NCBI RefSeq assembly: GCF_900115975.1
Contig: NZ_FOYM01000002.1
Coordinates: 62,001 to 126,000, forward strand
Origin: Desulfoscipio geothermicus DSM 3669
Lineage (GTDB): Bacteria; Bacillota; Desulfotomaculia; Desulfotomaculales; Desulfallaceae
Length of the DNA: 64,000 nt
Direction: 5' to 3'
In this document: in pieces, positions 6,314 through 63,425 of the stretch
Layout: the number at the start of each line of letters is the position of its first letter
Numbering within the stretch: position 1 is the stretch's first letter
Notes under the pieces: generated by a model
The model's database searches: none
What the model saw: the letters and a program-made list of their open reading frames with translations, nothing else
What the model was told of the DNA's origin: nothing
Program-made: the position numbers and the translations under genes

Positions 6314-7240
6314 ATGCGTGTAACCAACGGAATGATAGCCCGGCACACCCGGAACTATATTCAGGAAGGAATGCAAAAACTGGCCCGCACCCAGGAAATG
6401 ATGTCCACCAGCAAAAAAATCATCAGGCTCAGTGACGACCCCACCGCACTCAGCCAACTGCTGGACGTAAAATCCAGCATGGAAATGAATAAGCAATACA
6501 TGCGCAATATCCAGGACGGCCTCAGCTACCTGGAGGGGGCTGACACCGCCCTGGGTACGGCGGGCGACCTCTTGAAAAAAGCCCAAACTTACGCCATTCA
6601 GGCGACCAACGGCACGTTAAACAATAATGACATGGCCGCCATCGGGGAACAAATTGATAAAATGATTGATGAACTTGTAGACATCGCCAACACCACAATG
6701 GGCGGCAAATATATTTTTGCCGGTACGGACAACAACCGGCCGCCGTTTAAACGGGTGAATGATACAATTACCTACCAGGGTAATCTCGAGCGGGTTTACC
6801 GGGAAATTTTGGATCAGGCCAACTATGCCATAGATGTCCCTTCGGTGGGCGACAGTAGTGATCCGGGCTTGTTCGGATTCTATGACAATGCCACCAACAT
6901 CGTTTCCGGTGGAATATTTGATACACTGATAGATTTTAAAAATCGACTTAAAAACGGTGATGTTGCAAGCCTTGAACAATCCATCAACGAAATTGACGAT
7001 CAGGTTGACCACCTGCTGAGTTTCCGGGTGCAGGTGGGCGCCCGCACCAACCACTTTGAATCGGTGCAGGACCAGTTGCAGGACCAGGAACTCCGTCTCA
7101 CCCAGGTAATGAGCAACCTGGAGGACGTAGATCTGGCCAGGGTATCCATCGACCTGGCCCAGCAGCAGCTCACCTACCAGTCCTCCCTGGCGGCGGGCGC
7201 GCAAATTCTGCAGGTTACCTTGCTTGATTTTCTAAAATAA
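6314..7240 (+). CDS. flgL: Flagellar hook-filament junction protein 3 FlgL
   Basis: A 308-residue flagellin-related junction protein. The N-terminus MRVTNGMIARHTRNYIQ and the motif SDDPTALSQLLDVKS correspond to the conserved FlgL/flagellin D0-D1 helices. The C-terminal half carries VDLARVSIDLAQQQLTYQSSL, split as VDLARVSIDLAQQQL and TYQSSL, the terminal helix that packs in the filament axis. Start 6314 is preferred over the adjacent ATG 6311, because AGGGGG (6301-6306) then has 7 nt spacing. It follows flgK in the same operon. Confidence 0.94.
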   Translation: MRVTNGMIARHTRNYIQEGMQKLARTQEMMSTSKKIIRLSDDPTALSQLLDVKSSMEMNKQYMRNIQDGLSYLEGADTALGTAGDLLKKAQTYAIQATNGTLNNNDMAAIGEQIDKMIDELVDIANTTMGGKYIFAGTDNNRPPFKRVNDTITYQGNLERVYREILDQANYAIDVPSVGDSSDPGLFGFYDNATNIVSGGIFDTLIDFKNRLKNGDVASLEQSINEIDDQVDHLLSFRVQVGARTNHFESVQDQLQDQELRLTQVMSNLEDVDLARVSIDLAQQQLTYQSSLAAGAQILQVTLLDFLK

Positions 7241-7283
7241 AGTAAAATTAATTAAAGAAATATTTTCCTCGGGGGTGAACCCA

Positions 7284-7571
7284 GTGAAAATTGGCGCCGG
7301 CGGGCTGCAGTCACAGATAACCGAAAAGGCTGTTAAAGTCCGCCAGGTGGATTCAGCCCGGAACAAACCCGGCCACGAAGAAGCCATACCGGCCAACCAG
7401 GTCGAAGGACAGGACAGGGCGCGGGAACCGGTACTGAACCGACCGCCGGAAAAACCCCAAAAAGACCGTGCCGTGGATAATCACAGCGCACCCCGACAGC
7501 AAATGTCCCAACAAAATGAACAGGAAGAACCGGCGGAACAATTAGGCCGGTATGTGGACGTATATGTGTAG
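7284..7571 (+). CDS. Small Gln/Pro-rich protein in the flgL-fliW interval, unknown
   Basis: A 95-residue, highly polar protein (rich in Gln, Glu, Pro, Arg) with no membrane segment and no recognised domain. It probably starts at GTG 7284, 6 nt after GGGGGTGA; an in-frame GTG at 7275 overlaps that ribosome site. The first residues MKIGAGGLQ resemble the N-terminus of FlaG at 29456 (MKIAGIDPG), but the FlaG core domain is absent. The position suggests a flagellar accessory role; nothing in the sequence proves one. Confidence 0.55.
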   Translation: MKIGAGGLQSQITEKAVKVRQVDSARNKPGHEEAIPANQVEGQDRAREPVLNRPPEKPQKDRAVDNHSAPRQQMSQQNEQEEPAEQLGRYVDVYV

Positions 7572-7657: not shown

Positions 7658-8131
7658 ATGAAAGTAAAAACCACCCGCTTCGGGGTTCTGGAAATAGACG
7701 AAAAGCAAATTATAAACTTTCCCCGGGGCATCCCCGGCTTTGAAAACCTGCGGCGCTTTTGCATATTGCCCGTGGAGGGAACGGAAAACATGCAGTGGCT
7801 GCAGGCAGTGGAAGAGCCCGCCGTAGCCCTTTTGGTCATCGACCCGTTTAAATATTTCCGGGGCTATACCTGCAACGTGCCCGACCAGTACATAGAAGAA
7901 CTGGACATCCGGGACCCCGCCGAAGCCCTGGTGCTCACTACCATAACCGTGCCCCGGGACAACCCCGCCGCCACCACCGCCAACCTGGTGGCTCCCATTA
8001 TTATCAACACCCGGCTGAATCAGGCCCGGCAGGTTATTTTGAACAACTCCCCTTATACTACCAAGCACCGGCTTTTCCCGGACCAAAAGCCGGCTCCCAA
8101 ACCAAAAGAAAAAGTTTCCGGCGGGGAGTGA
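7658..8131 (+). CDS. fliW: Flagellar assembly factor FliW
   Basis: A 157-residue FliW. The family signature is clear: MKVKTTRFGVLEI, FPRGIPGFE near residues 24-32, and AVALLVIDPFKYF. FliW binds flagellin and antagonises CsrA, coupling flagellin translation to filament assembly. The start ATG 7658 is chosen because the upstream frame opens inside an inverted repeat, while 7658 has AGGGATAAGG before it. It is followed 5 nt later by csrA, then by fliC. Confidence 0.95.
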   Translation: MKVKTTRFGVLEIDEKQIINFPRGIPGFENLRRFCILPVEGTENMQWLQAVEEPAVALLVIDPFKYFRGYTCNVPDQYIEELDIRDPAEALVLTTITVPRDNPAATTANLVAPIIINTRLNQARQVILNNSPYTTKHRLFPDQKPAPKPKEKVSGGE

Positions 8132-8136
8132 GTGTA

Positions 8137-8358
8137 ATGCTGGTTCTCACCCGCAAAAAAAACCAGGGCATCATACTGGGGGACGATATAAAAATAACCG
8201 TCCTGGAAATAAGGGAAGACGCCGTCAAAATCGGCATCGAAGCTCCCAAAGAGGTCAACATCCTGCGCAGCGAGCTCTACCAGGCCGTCAAAGAAGAGAA
8301 CACAACCGCCGTCGCCAGTGACCGGAACATAGCGGACATGTTGAAAAATTTTTTCTAA
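8137..8358 (+). CDS. csrA: Carbon storage regulator / translational repressor CsrA
   Basis: A 73-residue CsrA beginning with the hallmark MLVLTRKKNQGIILGDDI and containing VKIGIEAPKEVNILRSEL. CsrA dimers bind GGA-containing hairpins and block ribosome access. The start is the ATG at 8137, 5 nt after the fliW stop; the in-frame GTG at 8128 would overlap fliW and add residues not seen in the family. The likely target is the flagellin leader 100 nt downstream, which has a loop-exposed GGGA hairpin. Confidence 0.95.
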   Translation: MLVLTRKKNQGIILGDDIKITVLEIREDAVKIGIEAPKEVNILRSELYQAVKEENTTAVASDRNIADMLKNFF

Positions 8359-8500: not shown

Positions 8501-9753
8501 ATGATTATCAACCATAATATTGCGGCGCTGAATACCTATCGTCAGTTGAGTAACAACAATATTATGAGCCAAAAATCATTAGAAAAACTATCTTCGGGTT
8601 TACGTATTAACCGTGCCGGAGACGATGCAGCGGGACTTGCCATTTCTGAGAAAATGCGCGGCCAGATTAGGGGATTGGAACAAGCGTCAAGAAATGCTCA
8701 GGATGGAATCTCTCTAATTCAGACAGCAGAAGGTGCTTTGAACGAAACACATAGTATTTTGCAGCGTATGCGTGAATTAGCAGTCCAAGCTGCGAACGAT
8801 TCAAACACTATAACAGATAGAAGAGAGATCCAAAAAGAAGTTAATGAACTAATTGATGAAATCGATCGCGTCGCAAAAAATACTGAATTTAACACCCAAA
8901 ATTTACTAGGTAAAACAAATGCAAGCGGAACTTTTACCGGTAGTGGGCAATCTTTCACTTTCCATATTGGTGCTAACGAAGCCCAAAATATTACCCTTAC
9001 AATTAACTCTATGGATTCTTCTCATATAGGAACTAGTTCCAGCGGCAGCATAACAACAAGTGTAAATACCCTGAAGGTTAGTGGCGTTGATAGCGCTACA
9101 TCTGGAGGAGTTCTAACCCAAAGTGGTGCAGATGCAGCTATAACTACAATTAATGATGCAATTGAGTTGGTATCCGCAGAACGGGCTAAGCTTGGCGCTT
9201 ACCAAAACCGTTTAGAACATACCATTAATAATCTGGGGACATCCGCAGAAAATCTTACTGCGGCAGAATCCCGTGTTAGAGACGTTGACATGGCCAAGGA
9301 AATGATGCAGTACACTAAGATGAGCATCCTGCAACAGGCCGCCCAGGCCATGCTTGAAGTTCTGGCCGCCTAAGGCCGGAACCACAGGCGTCCCGGAGGG
9401 TAACTTCCGGGAGGATCACCGGGTGAATTGCTGGGAAACCCTGAGAGCCTCCCGCCCGACAGCGAAGCCGGAAACGGCAGGCGCGATGGTCGAAAAGCCG
9501 GGAGGATTGGGCAACCAGCAGCCGAGCCCCTGTGCCGAAAGGCTGGGGAAGGTTCAACGACTAGGGCATACCACCTGCGGCCGCCAAGCGGTACGGTGAT
9601 GAAGCCCGTAGGGCGCCTGGAGGCGCCCGAAGCGCCCGGCTCCCGCCGGAAAAGGCGGGATGAAGATATAGTCTAGGCGCCGGCGAAAGCCGGCGGGCCG
9701 GCAGAGCACAGGCCAACCAACAGCCCCAGGGAGTCCTCCAGCTCCTGCGGTAA
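8501..9753 (+). CDS. fliC: Flagellin, coding sequence interrupted by a group I intron (exons 8501-9354 and 9705-9753)
   Basis: The major filament protein. The first exon encodes the conserved N-terminal helices ([36 protein letters not shown]), a small variable domain (about 140-200) and most of the C-terminal helix up to [11 protein letters not shown]. Read straight on, it would end abnormally after EVLAA at TAA 9371-9373. The missing conserved tail [15 protein letters not shown] is encoded in frame at 9706-9750, followed by TAA 9751. Joining 9354 to 9705 gives a normal 300-residue flagellin with the exact consensus tail. AAGGAGGA precedes ATG 8501. The splice sites are predicted from structure and protein consensus, not from transcripts. 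It is the likely substrate for the Maf/legionaminic acid genes downstream. Confidence 0.9.
9355..9704 (+). ncRNA. Group I self-splicing intron inside the flagellin gene
   Basis: About 350 nt with the group I core in order. P element AATTGCTGGGAAA is at 9426-9438. Q element AACCAGCAGCC is at 9513-9523; its CCAGC pairs with GCTGG of P to form P4. R element GTTCAACGACTAGG is at 9552-9565. S element AAGATATAGTC is at 9663-9673; its TAGTC pairs with GACTA of R to form P7. P1 pairs exon ATGCT plus intron TG with CAGGCGT (9385-9391), placing a U.G wobble (9354.9387) at the 5' splice site, then a 9-bp extension 9359-9367/9374-9382. P2 follows (CCCGGAG/TTCCGGG, 9392-9413). P9 is a GCCGGC stem with a GAAA tetraloop (9679-9694). 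The intron ends in G 9704. It contains no open reading frame. Confidence 0.93.
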
Positions 9754-9784
9754 TCTCGACTCAAGAATATTACAGTAAGCTCAT

Positions 9785-9830
9785 GGTAAACTGGAAGTGT
9801 ATATTTTCCTTCCGGTTTACCTTTTTATTA
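9785..9830 (+). terminator. Rho-independent terminator of fliC
   Basis: GGTAAACTGGAAG (9785-9797) pairs with CTTCCGGTTTACC (9809-9821) with a single T.G wobble, followed by TTTTTATTATTT. This strong terminator closes the flagellin transcript, 32 nt after the exon 2 stop and about 100 nt before the 3' end of the convergent endonuclease gene. The rest of 9754-9929 shows nothing else recognisable. Confidence 0.88.
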
Positions 9831-9929
9831 TTTCTATAGTCAAAACTTTAACATCTTATACGACGTGTAATTGTGAACGGTACTACAGCGCATCCTGGCC
9901 AGCGGTTCTTGTCCCCGGGGTCCTGATCA

Positions 9930-10907
9930 CTATAATTCGGAAATGCACTTGTACTTATAATATGTAGCATAATACGTCCGCATAAAACCTGCGTCCAACA
10001 ATCGTCTATGTACTTCGACTGGCTTTAGTTTCTTGCTTATACCATTCTTTAAAATTTCAATTTCCTGTTCCGTCCAGTAATTTACTGGACAAGCAATAGA
10101 AAGTGTCCGCTGATGTTTTTTCGACAGTTCACGCACATGTCTGTTCAGATCGTACTTTCTCTGGAAAATATTCAACTTAACCTGTGATAAATAGGGAGAT
10201 ATCATTTTACTTATTAATTTAATTTGAGTGATTCCAGATATGGTCAAACGGATTCCACTTTCCGCTGATGCCTTTGTAAAGGAAAGTTGCAAACCAGTAG
10301 CCCGTTCAATAATTTCCTTTAATTGTAAACCAATTTCCCTGGCAAAACCCTGGCTGTAAATAACATATTCAAAAGTGACGGTATTTCGCGTAATTGACGA
10401 GATTAAGGAACCGTCATCACCAATAAGGATGGCCATCGCCAGCCATGGTTCCTTTGAAAATATTTCCTCGCACATTTGTAGAGCAACCTGATCGGGGTAT
10501 TTTTCCCGCTTCTTTCTTTGGCTTGTAATTTTATTTTTGTTGGATTGTGCTCTATAGAAGTGCCGTTCAAGCTCTGAAAACAGCGGGTTCGACTGGGAGG
10601 TTAGGGAATAAGACCCGTCTCCAAAACTGGTAATCCGGAAAAACGGATGTGGTGGAAGGAAGCGGGATTTGAATTTCAGCCATTCGTACTGGTCAGCTCC
10701 GTGGTGATCGCGGAATACGGCGTATCCCCTGGGTACAGGGCACAGGTCTGCATCCCCTATTAGGCTTGCTATGATGACAGTCATAGCTTGGGGGTACTTT
10801 TTTATAGTATCCAGAAAAAGTTTGTGCTTAATACGGTAATTCGAGTGTAATTTCTTGTTCCAATAATCAGCCTGCATTTGATTAGAAATTAAATGATTAA
10901 TATCCAT
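9930..10907 (-). CDS. Free-standing LAGLIDADG-type homing endonuclease
   Basis: A 325-residue protein with two LAGLIDADG-like motifs of the (I)xxLIGDxxL subtype: IIASLIGDADL (residues 45-55, acidic Asp52) and AMAILIGDDGSL (157-168, acidic Asp164). The spacing of about 110 residues is that expected for a monomeric two-domain homing enzyme. A C-terminal segment, YWTEQEIEILKNGI, followed by a Tyr-rich helix (about 278-322), looks like a Myb/SANT-type DNA-binding module. The gene is AT-rich compared with the flagellar genes and convergent with fliC, whose intron ends 225 bp away. It lies outside the intron, so the inferred role is cutting the intronless flagellin allele to spread both elements. 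Confidence 0.82.
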   Translation of the reverse strand: MDINHLISNQMQADYWNKKLHSNYRIKHKLFLDTIKKYPQAMTVIIASLIGDADLCPVPRGYAVFRDHHGADQYEWLKFKSRFLPPHPFFRITSFGDGSYSLTSQSNPLFSELERHFYRAQSNKNKITSQRKKREKYPDQVALQMCEEIFSKEPWLAMAILIGDDGSLISSITRNTVTFEYVIYSQGFAREIGLQLKEIIERATGLQLSFTKASAESGIRLTISGITQIKLISKMISPYLSQVKLNIFQRKYDLNRHVRELSKKHQRTLSIACPVNYWTEQEIEILKNGISKKLKPVEVHRRLLDAGFMRTYYATYYKYKCISEL

Positions 10908-10937
10908 TATACCACTCCAAACAAATGTTCCAATTTA

Positions 10938-10965
10938 ATCATACCATAAATATATGACTTTGTAA
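10938..10965 (-). promoter_or_regulatory. Sigma-A-like promoter for the endonuclease gene
   Basis: On the minus strand, TTACAA, 16 nt, TATGAT lie about 30 nt upstream of the endonuclease start, with GGAGTGG as its ribosome site. The element is a moderate match to -35/-10 consensus. Confidence 0.45.
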
Positions 10966-11091
10966 CCTTAGATTGTATTACCACGGTGGTATTTTTTAGG
11001 TGAAGCTGAAATCCAAAGAGAGAGGATTTATATTTTATGTGTAGAATTGTCTAAATAAGTCAACTTATGGTTTTTGTCAAACAGATTGCGT

Positions 11092-11118
11092 TAAAGTACA
11101 GGTTACTTATAGCGCTAT
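11092..11118 (+). promoter_or_regulatory. Possible sigma-28 promoter for the glycosylation island
   Basis: TAAAGTAC (11092-11099), 11 nt, AGCGCTAT (11111-11118). The -35 half is good; the -10 matches five of eight consensus positions. It lies 85 nt before the first glycosylation gene. The surrounding interval 10908-11203 also holds the endonuclease promoter and a TACCAC-G-GTGGTA palindrome near 10979-10991, with nothing else recognised. Confidence 0.4.
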
Positions 11119-11203
11119 CGCTTAAAGGGTTTTTTAAATACTTAAGAATGAAGCAGGAAATGTCGAATATATGGGTAGGGGTAATATTTCGGAGGGGTTC
11201 GCT

Positions 11204-11812
11204 ATGGAGGTAAAAATCTTAGGCCAAAGTATATTTTTCAACAATCAATCTACCTCAGCGCAAAAGATAATTGAGGTTATAAACCAGCTAATCCGTGATT
11301 CTGGCTTGTTTTTAAGTTGTCTGAAGGTGAATGGAAAAGATATTTACAATGACTTTGAATTTTATATAGAAGAACATCTCAATACTATTCAAGTTATTGA
11401 AGTGGAAGTAAAAAATAGAAAAGAGTGGCTTGATGACATGTTGCTCTCTGGTGCTCGTTATCTGGAACGCAGTATCCCGGCGGTTCAACAGCTTGCCGAC
11501 CGGTTTTATCAAGGGCCCTCCGCCGGTACATGGACACAATTTGCACAATTATTGGAAGGGGTGGAGTGGCTGGTCCAACTAATCCACGGGATGGAACAAA
11601 ATAAACTCCTATATCCCGGTTGGGGCACTAACATTACGGTTGCAGCAAGTTTTAAAGAAGCGTTGGATAATCTTGCTGAAGCTATGGAAAATTCCGACAC
11701 GATTTTAATTGCGGACATCATTAATTATGAAATAATGCCTCTTTTGGAGTCCCTTATGGTTGACGTTCAAAAAACCATCGACTCTGAGGTGAAAAGAAAT
11801 GATCTTAATTGA
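11204..11812 (+). CDS. Unknown protein paired with the Maf glycosyltransferase gene
   Basis: A 202-residue protein without signal peptide or membrane segment and with no domain recognised. ATG 11204 follows GGAGGGG; a longer frame from 11171 lacks a ribosome site. The last codons overlap the DUF115 gene by 14 nt, so the two are probably translated together. The N-terminal half (MEVKILGQSIFFNN) is beta-like and the C-terminal half is helical and acidic (SFKEALDNLAEAMEN). Context suggests a partner or chaperone in flagellin glycosylation; this is inference only. Base composition is AT-rich compared with the flagellar genes. Confidence 0.7.
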   Translation: MEVKILGQSIFFNNQSTSAQKIIEVINQLIRDSGLFLSCLKVNGKDIYNDFEFYIEEHLNTIQVIEVEVKNRKEWLDDMLLSGARYLERSIPAVQQLADRFYQGPSAGTWTQFAQLLEGVEWLVQLIHGMEQNKLLYPGWGTNITVAASFKEALDNLAEAMENSDTILIADIINYEIMPLLESLMVDVQKTIDSEVKRNDLN

Positions 11813-13688
11813 CAATATTAATTTTTTGAGGGAGCAGTTTCCTGCCGTATGGGAAAACATTAAGGACATAAGTGATAACGGATTATCTACTGTGGCTCAA
11901 GTATTCCCGGCTAAGAGCGGTGTCCCTACTCTTATGTGGACAGCCCAGGGGCGGTCGGTTTATCTTCACAGTAAATATGACCCTGTTCAGGAAGCAGAAC
12001 GTTTGATCAGCAAATATGAGGATGCGAGGGATTATGACCATGTAATGTTTTACGGTGTGGGGTTAGGCTATCATATTGAGGCGTTTATGAAAAAGTATCC
12101 CCACCTTTCCTTTTCGCTTTACGAACCCAGCAAAATAATATTTTCACAATTTTTATCCCATAGGTCGTTAAATTTATTACCTGCGAAAAAATTAAAAAAT
12201 ATATACTTGGAAATGAATTCAACAGACATATCTAATAATTTAAATGATTTTATGAAAGTCATCAATAGTCAAAAGGTTCTTCTGGTTATCCTGCCCAGTT
12301 ATGAGCGGGTTTTTAAGGAGGAATACGAGCATTTCACCACGTTATTTAGACAGCTAATTTCTGATAGACGTTTTTCCCTCAATACTAATGTCGCCTTTGA
12401 AAAGCGTTGGATTATCAATAGTTTGCTCAATCTCCCTGAAACCGTCACGACTCCCAATGCGTTTTATGATCTTAACCAGGAATGTTTTCTAAATAAACCC
12501 GCCCTGCTTGTGGCAGCGGGACCCTCACTGCAAGAAGATATTGAAGAAGTCCGCTATATAAAAGAAAACGGCCTGGCTTATATTTTTTCAGTGGGTTCGG
12601 CCATTAATGTTTTATTGGCCCATGGGATATACCCGGACTTTGCGTGTACTTATGACCCGTCCCACTTTAACCAAAAGGTATTTGAGAAGGTTGTGAAGGA
12701 GGGCATTTCTACTATTCCACTGATTTTTGGCAGCAGTGTCGGGTATGAAACGCTTACTGCTTACCCCGGTCCGAAACTGCATATGCTTACCAGTCAGGAT
12801 ACGGTTGCCCCTTTCTTTTTAAGAAGGGAAGATATTTCAGATTTAGAAACAGTCCAAGACGCACCTTCCATAGCGGTAATAACCCTGCAATTGCTGCATA
12901 AACTGGGTTGCAATCCGGTTTTTCTTGCCGGCCAAAACCTAGCTTATAAAGATAATAAATCCTACTCGCAAGGAATTGAATACTATTCGGGTATAGTTGG
13001 TGAACAGGAGCTTAAAAGGGCGATAACTGTTGAGGATGTCTACGGTAACGAGGTATATACAAGCGAAACCTTTAACAAAATGAGAAAAAATATGGAAATG
13101 CTTATTTCGTTATATACCAACCAGCAAATTATTAACACCACTAAGGGTGGCGCAAAAATTGCGGGAACCACTTTTATACCGCTAGAAAAAGTTATTAAAG
13201 AGATGCTGGTAGAACGTGTAGTAAGGGATAACTGGCTGCAAAAGAAATATAATTATGACATGGAATATCTGGCCGGACAGCTTACCGTGATGGATACAGA
13301 ATATAAAAATATCTTTAAAATAATTAAATCTATTATTAATATCTTTAAAGAAATGAATAATTTGATAACTACGAATAATAAACAACAGCTGGAAAAAACA
13401 TTTCCAAAATTGGATAAAGCATTTACTAAAATAAGGGAAAACAAGTTTTATGAACTGTTTCTCATGCCGATGAACAGAGTGCAGTTTGAATTGTTGACAA
13501 GTCAAATAGCAAATATTCGTTTTGAAAAAAATCAATTTTATAAAGCACGAAAGGTTACTCAATACTTTGGAAAATATATCTACTTGTGCAAAAAAGATTT
13601 AGAGCTTATAACTCCGCTATGGAAGAACGTACACGGAACAATGCTTCAAAAAATAGAAAGTTGTAGAGTTAATAATGGTAAAAAATGA
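11799..13688 (+). CDS. Motility accessory factor-type (DUF115/Maf) flagellin glycosyltransferase
   Basis: A 629-residue protein with the DUF115 core near residues 195-400: it includes FEKRWIINSLLNLP, ALLVAAGPSL (235-244) and FACTYDPSHFNQKVFE. Maf proteins transfer nonulosonic acids (pseudaminic or legionaminic) to Ser/Thr of flagellin in the cytoplasm before export. The neighbouring complete legionaminic acid pathway and the adjacent flagellin gene identify the likely donor and acceptor. An N-terminal domain of about 190 residues precedes the core, as in other Maf proteins. A long helical, Lys-rich C-terminus follows. The gene is clearly AT-rich, consistent with transfer. Confidence 0.88.
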   Translation: MILIDNINFLREQFPAVWENIKDISDNGLSTVAQVFPAKSGVPTLMWTAQGRSVYLHSKYDPVQEAERLISKYEDARDYDHVMFYGVGLGYHIEAFMKKYPHLSFSLYEPSKIIFSQFLSHRSLNLLPAKKLKNIYLEMNSTDISNNLNDFMKVINSQKVLLVILPSYERVFKEEYEHFTTLFRQLISDRRFSLNTNVAFEKRWIINSLLNLPETVTTPNAFYDLNQECFLNKPALLVAAGPSLQEDIEEVRYIKENGLAYIFSVGSAINVLLAHGIYPDFACTYDPSHFNQKVFEKVVKEGISTIPLIFGSSVGYETLTAYPGPKLHMLTSQDTVAPFFLRREDISDLETVQDAPSIAVITLQLLHKLGCNPVFLAGQNLAYKDNKSYSQGIEYYSGIVGEQELKRAITVEDVYGNEVYTSETFNKMRKNMEMLISLYTNQQIINTTKGGAKIAGTTFIPLEKVIKEMLVERVVRDNWLQKKYNYDMEYLAGQLTVMDTEYKNIFKIIKSIINIFKEMNNLITTNNKQQLEKTFPKLDKAFTKIRENKFYELFLMPMNRVQFELLTSQIANIRFEKNQFYKARKVTQYFGKYIYLCKKDLELITPLWKNVHGTMLQKIESCRVNNGKK

Positions 13689-13736
13689 AATTTGAAACGG
13701 AAAAACGTTTGATAAGGGGTTATTTATTTAACATAA

Positions 13737-13802
13737 AAAATACTCGTTACCGGCGCCGATGGCTTTATCGGTTCACATTTAATTGAAGTGTTTGGATTGT
13801 GA
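13737..13802 (+). pseudogene. Remnant of an NAD-dependent epimerase/dehydratase N-terminus
   Basis: Twenty-one codons without a start encode KILVTGADGFIGSHLIEV before a TGA at 13800. This is the Rossmann GxxGxxG entry of extended SDR sugar epimerases/dehydratases. It parallels the N-terminus of legB at 16290 (KILVTGAAGFIGSHLVEE) but differs at many bases, so it is a diverged relative and not a recent copy. An in-frame TAA lies immediately upstream (13734-13736). Confidence 0.75.
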
Positions 13803-13811
13803 GGTGTAAGA

Positions 13812-15200
13812 ATGAGAATTCTTTTAGTCGTTTATGATAATGACTCATATATATCATGGTTTCCGCAGGGTTTGGCTTATATTGCAGCAGTATGCCGGAA
13901 TGTAGGTTATGAAGTTAAAATTTACAACCAGGATGTTTATCATTGGCCGGAATCACATCTACTTGATTTGTTAAATAAGGAGCGCTTTGACGTAATTGGT
14001 GTCAGTGTTATTGCAGGATATTATCAGTATAGAAAATTATTGAAGATTTCTGATGCCATAAACAAGGCGAAATATAGACCTTTCTACATAATTGGAGGGC
14101 ACGGCCCCGCGCCTGAGCCAGAATACTTTTTAAAAAAGACCAAGGCCGATGCTGTTGTTATTGGAGAGGGAGAAAATACAATTATTGAACTGTTGGAGGC
14201 GGTAAGAGGATTAAGGTCTTTATCTTCAGTGAATGGAATTGCATATATGGAGAATGGGAAATGTGTTAAAACTCCCGCTCGTGAACTGATTAAAAACATC
14301 GATGAGATTCCCTTTCCTGCCTGGGATCTTTTTCCGATGGACCATTATGCCCTGTTAAGAATGCCCCATATCAAGAACAGCGAGAGTTGCATGCCTGTAT
14401 TATCCGGGAGAGGATGTACCTTTAAATGCAACTTTTGCTATCGTATGGATAAAGGTTTTAGAGCCAGGACGGCTGAGAGTATCATTGAAGAGATCCAAAT
14501 TCTTCAGAAAGATTATGGTATCTCATATATCGCATTTTCGGATGAATTGCTCATGAGTTCAACCAAAAGGACAATTGAACTTTGCACGAGTTTTATTAAA
14601 GCAAAACTTAATATTAAGTGGGATTGTAACGGGAGGCTGAACTATGCCAAACCGGACGTCCTTAAGTTAATGAAAGAAGCAGGTTGTGTTTTTATTAATT
14701 ATGGTATTGAATCGTTAGATGAGAAGGCTCTACGTGTTATGGGCAAGGGGCTTACTGTTAAGCAGATCATTACAGGTATTGAAAATACCCTGGCGGCCGG
14801 TATTAGCCCCGGGTTTAATATTATATTCGGCAATATCGGGGAGACGGCCGAATCATTAAATCGCGGAGTAGATTTCCTGCTTAAATACGATGATCACGCA
14901 CAGATGAGAACAATACGGCCGGTAACCCCTTATCCCGGGTCACCTTTATATTACTATGCAATCGAAAAAGGTCTATTAAAAGATTGTGAAGATTTTTATG
15001 AAAATAAACATGTGAATTCTGATTTATTGTCTGTTAACTTTACGGATATGAGTGATGATGAATTTCATAGGCTTCTTTATGAAGCAAACAAGAAACTTAT
15101 TACAAATTATTTTTCAGCTCAGCTAAGTAAGACGCTTAATACTGCAGAAAATCTGTATCTAAATAAAGATGCTAGTTTTAGAGGCTTTAGGCAGAGTTAG
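13812..15200 (+). CDS. B12-binding-domain radical SAM protein
   Basis: A 462-residue protein with an N-terminal cobalamin-binding-like domain (MRILLVVYDN to IIGGHGPAPEP, about 1-130) and a radical SAM core. The [4Fe-4S] cysteines form CTFKCNFC (Cys202, Cys206, Cys209), followed by a glycine-rich SAM region. Such enzymes often methylate or rearrange unreactive carbons. The position between the Maf gene and the legionaminic acid genes suggests modification of the glycan or of the flagellin; the substrate cannot be told from sequence. ATG 13812 follows GAGGTG. The gene is AT-rich like its neighbours. Confidence 0.87.
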   Translation: MRILLVVYDNDSYISWFPQGLAYIAAVCRNVGYEVKIYNQDVYHWPESHLLDLLNKERFDVIGVSVIAGYYQYRKLLKISDAINKAKYRPFYIIGGHGPAPEPEYFLKKTKADAVVIGEGENTIIELLEAVRGLRSLSSVNGIAYMENGKCVKTPARELIKNIDEIPFPAWDLFPMDHYALLRMPHIKNSESCMPVLSGRGCTFKCNFCYRMDKGFRARTAESIIEEIQILQKDYGISYIAFSDELLMSSTKRTIELCTSFIKAKLNIKWDCNGRLNYAKPDVLKLMKEAGCVFINYGIESLDEKALRVMGKGLTVKQIITGIENTLAAGISPGFNIIFGNIGETAESLNRGVDFLLKYDDHAQMRTIRPVTPYPGSPLYYYAIEKGLLKDCEDFYENKHVNSDLLSVNFTDMSDDEFHRLLYEANKKLITNYFSAQLSKTLNTAENLYLNKDASFRGFRQS

Positions 15201-30151: not shown

Positions 30152-30240
30152 AATCATACACTGGGCAAACCCGGTGAAAACCGGGGGCGCAAAGCCGTGG
30201 GTCTAAGGTGCAAATCTGCGTTATGATTGCCAGGCTGCAA
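30152..30240 (+). ncRNA. Cyclic di-GMP-I (GEMM) riboswitch
   Basis: The aptamer shows GGGCAAACC (30163-30171), a GAAA-capped P2 stem, GGCGCAAAGCC (30186-30196), GGGTCTAAGG (30199-30208) and ATTGCCAGGCTGC (30226-30238). P1 is closed by AATCATA (30152-30158) with TATGATT (30222-30228). These are the conserved blocks of class I c-di-GMP riboswitches. A terminator lies 30 nt downstream, so ligand binding probably controls read-through into flgB and the rest of the operon. The direction (on or off) cannot be read with certainty; repression of motility by high c-di-GMP is the expected logic. Confidence 0.92.
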
Positions 30241-30268
30241 GTAATAACTTCTATATAAATTAAAAGCG

Positions 30269-63261: not shown

Positions 63262-63380
63262 TGTGAGAGAAAGTGTACCTAGGGTTCCACACCGGCAAGC
63301 CGGTGGTTCGGTCCAAGCGGTACAGGCAGCGCCGGCCAGGCCGGGCGCGGCTACACCGGTCGGGATAAAAGCCCAGGCGG
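63262..63380 (+). ncRNA. ykkC-class riboswitch, probably the PRPP-sensing subtype
   Basis: The leader contains the conserved ykkC blocks: ACCTAGGGTTCC (63277-63288), GGTCC (63310-63314) and GGGATAAAAGCCCAGG (63362-63377), around GC-rich stems. Class members sense guanidine, ppGpp or PRPP; those before purine synthesis genes in Firmicutes are the PRPP type. purE follows directly, supporting that subtype. The 3' conserved AAAGCCCA is also the 5' arm of the following terminator, the expected switching design. Confidence 0.82.
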
Positions 63381-63425
63381 GTAGGTTTCACTCAAATGAA
63401 CCTGCCCTGCTTGGGCTTTGTATTT
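63368..63425 (+). terminator. Riboswitch-controlled terminator before purE
   Basis: 63368-63388 (AAAGCCCAGGCGGGTAGG then TTT) pairs with 63399-63419 (AACCTGCCCTGCTTGGGC then TTT), followed by GTATTTTAT. Its 5' arm overlaps the aptamer, so folding of the aptamer and the terminator exclude each other. 63426-63521 holds only the purE leader. Confidence 0.85.

Follow-up and report, generated by a model that had tools for sequence, protein, structure and literature searches.

A free-standing LAGLIDADG endonuclease gene beside an ORF-less flagellin intron: a probable collaborative homing pair on a bacterial chromosome

Collaborative homing is known from phages, with examples in cyanophage S-PM2 (the psbA intron with F-CphI), in T3/T7-like phages and in the terminase gene of phage ICP1 (PMC3984707, PMC6083498, PMC10448857). 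It has been proposed as a way in which ORF-less introns gain endonucleases and mobility, and in the literature searched no case was found outside phages. Group I introns in flagellin genes have been described in Geobacillus and thermophilic Bacillus (Hayakawa and Ishizuka 2009, 2012); our comparison draws on papers that cite this work, and these name no partner endonuclease. The window analysed here is a stretch of 64,000 nt from Desulfoscipio geothermicus DSM 3669. Like the phage systems, it has an ORF-less group I intron in a host gene, in this case fliC, and next to it a separate gene for an endonuclease.

The flagellin gene and its group I intron

The genes of the window run in the order flgK-flgL-fliW-csrA-fliC, followed by a convergent ORF (9930–10907, minus strand). 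Beyond this lie maf-type and sialic/legionaminic-type glycan genes, and then the remainder of the flagellar cluster. Elsewhere in the window c-di-GMP-I and guanidine-I riboswitches are recognized by Rfam at 30154–30242 and 63268–63381 respectively. Exon 1 of fliC (8501–9354, plus strand) encodes flagellin, matching Flagellin_N (3e-49) and Flagellin_C (1.7e-21). If unspliced, its frame reaches a stop shortly past the 5′ splice site (..QAMLEVLAA*), and the missing end of the protein reappears ∼350 nt after this premature stop, where exon 2 (9705–9756, plus strand) brings back the canonical flagellin C-terminus.

The intervening 350 nt (9355–9704, plus strand) are, on their sequence features, a genuine group I intron. 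The conserved catalytic core is matched by RF00028 of Rfam over 9354–9695, with a score of 53.9 bits against a gathering cut-off of 50 bits. The P1 helix is formed between AUGCU^UG and the internal guide sequence CAGGCGU (9385–9391), with a U.G pair at the 5′ splice site, and is extended by a hairpin at 9359–9382. Both elements come from RNAfold of 9336–9425. The intron bounds are set at 9355–9704 by this P1 pairing, which sits in the minimum free energy structure, and by the recovery of the canonical flagellin end; the terminal base of the intron is G (..GGCAG). Splicing is suggested by the restored flagellin C-terminus. An alternative 5′ splice site at a strong GUUCU^GGCC hairpin was rejected; it would add EVL to the flagellin, and the hairpin is the P1 extension. 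Inspection by eye did not support P10 pairing as the cause of the invariance at the first position of exon 2. There is no conserved ORF inside the window intron, in agreement with the earlier note, which had called it ORF-less.

Comparison of introns from nine loci reveals that they enter fliC near its 3′ end, at two main sites termed A (RDVD^MAKEMM) and B (AML^AQAN), and the window intron occupies site B. The last exon bases are UGAU at site A and UGCU at site B, while the guide is GUCG and GGCG respectively; since the altered guide base pairs with the altered exon base, the change is compensatory. The first base of exon 2 is A, followed by CAG (ATGCT^AGCNCAGGC), in 13/13 site-B carriers, compared with A at the junction in 4/33 intronless alleles (p=2e-8), although the carriers form one clade and are therefore not 13 independent events. 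An A at this position in the carriers would be expected if the intron is inherited together with the exon sequence on its 3′ side.

The introns that related genomes carry at site A and at a further site C (MLA^QAN) are group I introns akin to the window intron; they too sit at the 3′ end of the flagellin gene, at insertion points different from that of the window intron. Their genomes lack the window endonuclease family, except for G022, which also has site B. In G022 a single flagellin gene (L015:7464-8204) is interrupted by one group I intron at site A and another at site B, and a reverse transcriptase and nitrilase cassette following them parts fliC from an endonuclease remnant. The site-C introns (L019:5692-6031; L145 in G118; L020, about 7808-8163) encode in their 5′ part a full alternative flagellin C-terminus and a stop, so the unspliced mRNA too would give a full-length flagellin. 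In G080 the site-B intron (L081:9085-9529) lies in a duplicate of the flagellin tail; the fliC upstream of this is intact and has no intron. G105 may be a decayed version of this arrangement.

The convergent endonuclease gene

The ORF at 9930–10907 (minus strand) is assigned from homologs and profile comparisons as a free-standing LAGLIDADG_2-type endonuclease gene of 325 aa. Its ATG start is preceded by GGAGTGG as a ribosome-binding site, and its stop lies 225 bp from the end of the intron and 173 bp from the fliC stop. The earlier note had placed a two-motif LAGLIDADG ORF outside the intron, 225 bp downstream and convergent with fliC, and the coordinates 9355–9704 and 9930–10907 agree with this. 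LAGLIDADG motif 1 (VIIASLIGDADL, 10743–10778, minus strand) contains D52, found in all intact homologs, and motif 2 (LAMAILIGDDGSL, 10404–10442, minus strand) contains D164/D165, where DDG is invariant in an alignment of 11 sequences. The catalytic acids of both motifs are present in every intact copy. The G156 copy has Y in place of D52, in a gene that is broken by a frame disruption. The C-terminal segment (NYWTEQEIEILK..YKYK, 9933–10082, minus strand) probably binds DNA; it is the part that survives as the remnant in G022 (77% identity to G081 over 62 aa).

The nearest relatives of the window protein (52–57% identity) are in G081, G032 and G105, from three other families of the order, and remote relatives (about 26–30% identity) occur in seven genomes from other families of the phylum. 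Compared with G081, conservation by codon position is in the order 2>1>3 (78/65/43%), a pattern consistent with constraint at the level of protein; the NG86 dN is 0.34, with dS saturated. The window protein alone has no match in Pfam or NCBIfam, and none in a single-sequence search of the PDB. Its 57%-identical relative in G081 matches PF03161 with 23.8 bits, below the cut-off of 25 (E 4.7e-5). An alignment of the four near sequences was compared with one of the seven remote sequences using hhalign, and these match over 293 columns (E 2e-21, probability 99.4%). In the joint alignment 8/11 members match PF03161, and the remote members are unambiguous LAGLIDADG_2 proteins (best 4.5e-26). Among solved structures, I-SceI is the best match of the joint profile (E 1.6e-5); the four-sequence near profile does not find it. 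An AlphaFold model from two sequences was unusable (pLDDT 47). From the G081 match, the profile match to a clear subfamily and the joint-profile match to I-SceI, we assign the window protein, by sequence, to LAGLIDADG_2 as a divergent member with two motifs.

Relative to G081 and G032, the window copy is about 130 residues short at its N-terminus, and given this missing segment it may be impaired. It could thus be a decaying relic that has lost its N-terminal domain and is no longer an active enzyme, like the decayed copies that are common in the family (G022, G156, G482, G334 and G470). Yet it retains a long open frame, a ribosome-binding site, both catalytic motifs and an intact C-terminal domain, and the remote branch of the family has a short N-terminus as well. 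We regard loss of activity as a minor though real possibility for this copy, and it would be compatible with collaborative homing by the family.

A tblastn search of a phage collection gave a sole match, at 24% identity, in an intein-containing RNA ligase, and among viral contigs just four were related, at 24% identity. In G170 a distant homolog (L103, about 6666-7364; E 1e-22) lies between phage-like (capsid) ORFs, where it overlaps a weak match to a group I intron. This is probably an intron-encoded relative, and a possible source of the free-standing family. A second free-standing LAGLIDADG_2 family (PF03161, 8.3e-24), distinct from that of the window, has its genes behind fliC and reading in the fliC direction; it occurs in five genomes (G080, G055, G025, G230 and, as a fragment, G001; loci L081:3073-4005 on the minus strand, L155:6185-7114, L156:5948-6865, L104:6551-7477 and L021:5704-5946). 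It was considered as a strict partner of site A and rejected, a site-A intron being present in only 2/5 cases.

Distribution, placement and phylogeny of gene and intron

A sample of 398 genomes of the phylum was searched with the endonuclease profile and with RF00028, and introns were placed by the flagellin reading frame. Nine genomes have a site-B intron (the window genome G000, G222, G464, G318, G388, G482, G156, G229 and G334) and nine have the endonuclease family (G000, G222, G464, G318, G388, G208 and G410, with decayed copies in G482 and G156). Seven of the nine site-B genomes thus have the endonuclease, intact in five and decayed in two. The overlap has p=4.3e-12, or p=3e-6 on a reduced denominator that takes only 60 of the genomes to be flagellin-bearing. 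In G334 the last 53 nt of the endonuclease gene are present at the right place (52/53 identical to its congener G464), bringing the count to 8/9. The family is absent from all six site-A genomes of this sample (G025, G056, G230, G371, G186 and G493). At the level of bacterial families the overlap is complete, site-B introns and the endonuclease being found in one and the same set of six. A sample of 113 genomes of the class contains site-B introns or their remnants in G000, G081, G022, G080, G108, G105 and G001, and the endonuclease in G000, G081, G105, G022 (remnant) and G032. All of these five endonuclease genomes but G032 have a site-B intron, whole or as a remnant (4/5, p=2.7e-5), and the endonuclease is absent from the site-A-only genomes G009, G025, G013 and G056. 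These tests take the genomes as independent, though they are related; the family-level count and the contrast with site A provide the safeguard. The association of the endonuclease is specific to one insertion site, site B.

Every member with resolved context adjoins a flagellin gene, tail-to-tail with its upstream fliC. The endonuclease follows fliC directly in G000, G464, G318, G222 and G482, and lies beyond insertions (a transposase, an RT-nitrilase cassette or a maf gene) in G081, G022, G388, G208 and G410. In G105 it adjoins the decayed intron and exon 2 at a contig broken by an apparent group II intron. In G032 the gene has an intronless flagellin on either side. G156 was left out of this count because its intron and gene are on separate contigs. 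The arrangement of a free-standing endonuclease beside an ORF-less intron recurs in G081, G464, G318, G222 and G388. The check proposed in the earlier note, co-occurrence of gene and intron in related genomes, came out in favour of the pairing: families that are not related to one another have the two together, the intron at precisely site B and the gene always convergent beside flagellin. The endonuclease adjoins maf-type glycan genes in several genomes, and in three (L108:7274-10570, L110:5036-7949 and L109:3339-6955) it is at the far end of maf-type flagellin-glycosylation genes and not directly behind fliC.

A core alignment of 24 flagellin introns places all site-B introns in a single clade (support 0.989) that divides into two branches, one with G000, G081, G080, G022 and G108, the other with G464, G334, G229, G482, G156, G222, G388 and G318. 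The endonuclease divides into the same two groups. Similarities of intron and endonuclease are correlated (Mantel r=0.53, exact p=0.011), the signal coming mainly from the two-group split, and there is no correlation of the endonuclease with the flagellin N-terminus (r=−0.05). For a pair that crosses families (G388 of f133 and G208 of f31) identity is 87% between the endonucleases and 80% between the flagellin N-termini.

Intron and gene are found in all states of preservation. Both are intact in G000, G081, G464, G318, G222 and G388; the intron accompanies a decayed gene in G022, G482, G156 and G334, and the gene a decayed intron in G105. Site-B introns or remnants stand without the endonuclease in G080, G229 and G001. 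The first two have the intron with no gene, and G229 has no convincing endonuclease stub. G108 is uncertain; its 30-nt candidate stub is marginal (p about 0.02) and was left out of the counts. The gene stands alone beside an intronless flagellin in G032, G208 and G410, and a gene remnant occurs with no intron in G470. With every stage represented in many genomes (both partners, intron only, enzyme only and remnants of each), the cycle of gain and loss is directly testable.

Collaborative homing, its alternatives and known systems

The site-specific co-occurrence, the convergent placement, the matching two-branch phylogenies and the retained catalytic acids lead us to propose that the window endonuclease acts in trans for the neighbouring ORF-less flagellin intron, as a case of collaborative homing on bacterial chromosomes. 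We consider this probable. The free-standing I-SceI-type (LAGLIDADG_2) enzyme would recognise about 20 bp of intronless fliC over the site-B junction and cut there, with a predicted core target ATGCT^AGCNCAGGC that encodes M-L-A-Q-A. The donor would be immune, since the intron divides the target. Once DNA from a donor reaches a cell whose fliC has no intron, repair of the break would use the donor as template, so that the intron and exon 2 would be copied and with them the endonuclease gene, because this lies only 225 bp past the intron. Self-splicing would take the intron out of the fliC mRNA, so that insertion should cost little. Cleavage, the position of the cut and conversion are put forward here on comparative grounds.

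Against this reading stand four genomes in which an endonuclease gene (G032, G208 and G410) or what is left of one (G470) adjoins intronless flagellins, and G105, which has an intact-looking endonuclease copy and an intronless fliC. The site-B introns or remnants found without the gene, and the shortened N-terminus of the window copy, also count against it. The earlier note had suggested the collaborative pair, naming relatives with an endonuclease unlinked to fliC introns as evidence against it. The pairing is strengthened by the site-B-specific co-occurrence and the convergent layout, and weakened in part by these four genomes, where the gene or remnant stands beside intronless flagellins but never away from flagellin. 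If the target is site B, an intact gene beside an intronless fliC would be expected to cut its own chromosome unless the sites differ. The intronless sites of G032, G208, G470 and G105 do depart from the carrier consensus at the exon-junction base, as do most gene-less intronless alleles. That of G410 matches the core, and therefore either recognition extends further, or the G410 enzyme is inactive or differently targeted.

Genes beside intronless flagellins are also what would be seen if the endonuclease homed independently of any intron, cutting elsewhere in or just after fliC, with the site-B intron a passenger that shares the target gene. In keeping with this, the gene forms a discrete block of about 1 kb that is 85% identical between G208 and G410 though the neighbouring maf gene no longer aligns, and the block is absent from the otherwise syntenic G125. 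Against it, the endonuclease accompanies site B in 7/9 genomes and site A in 0/6, even though the two sites are only a short distance apart in the 3′-terminal part of fliC. This preference, and the agreement between the two-branch phylogenies, point to a tie with site B in particular; we think such independence unlikely. A role as a trans-acting maturase aiding the splicing of the flagellin intron, for which there is precedent among LAGLIDADG proteins (the Thermotoga 23S intron, PMC3984707) and which would fit the conservation of the family with one intron clade, is highly improbable, because all intact copies keep the catalytic acids and the gene stands without any flagellin intron in G032, G208 and G410, while in G080 and G229 site-B introns do without the gene.

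The region of the window from 8501 to 15200 is of mosaic composition. The fliC and endonuclease genes, the next ORF, a maf-like gene and a radical-SAM gene have GC3 values of 31–42%, compared with 58–69% in the neighbouring flagellar genes; within this low-GC block the intron (67% GC) and exon 2 (62% GC) are GC-rich. The earlier note had gone further, suggesting that flanking conversion could spread the whole flagellin-glycan locus. This stays conjectural, and the low-GC block is the sole hint of it. A still broader scheme, in which the partnership of one LAGLIDADG_2 family with one flagellin intron clade predates the two-branch split and long-tract conversion also drives the interspecies exchange of flagellin alleles and adjacent glycan genes, seems to us doubtful. 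Flagellin is a major surface antigen and a phage receptor, and thus flagellin variation could be affected by a selfish element that imposes conversion on the 3′ end of the flagellin gene.

On the reading that we prefer, collaborative homing at site B, the window pair differs from the phage systems in its location on a bacterial chromosome, in the use of LAGLIDADG_2 rather than the phage enzyme types, and in that cleavage is here a prediction; a single partnership is moreover conserved over several bacterial families. The window protein resembles I-SceI and other LAGLIDADG_2 proteins (PF03161) in having two LAGLIDADG motifs in one chain, as reflected in the match of the joint profile to I-SceI. 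It differs in that I-SceI is intron-encoded, while the window protein is the product of a free-standing chromosomal gene, from a family with extra N- and C-terminal segments. Set beside the phage-only cases in the literature searched, these comparisons suggest that a chromosomal pair of intron and LAGLIDADG endonuclease, shared by distantly related bacteria, is new.
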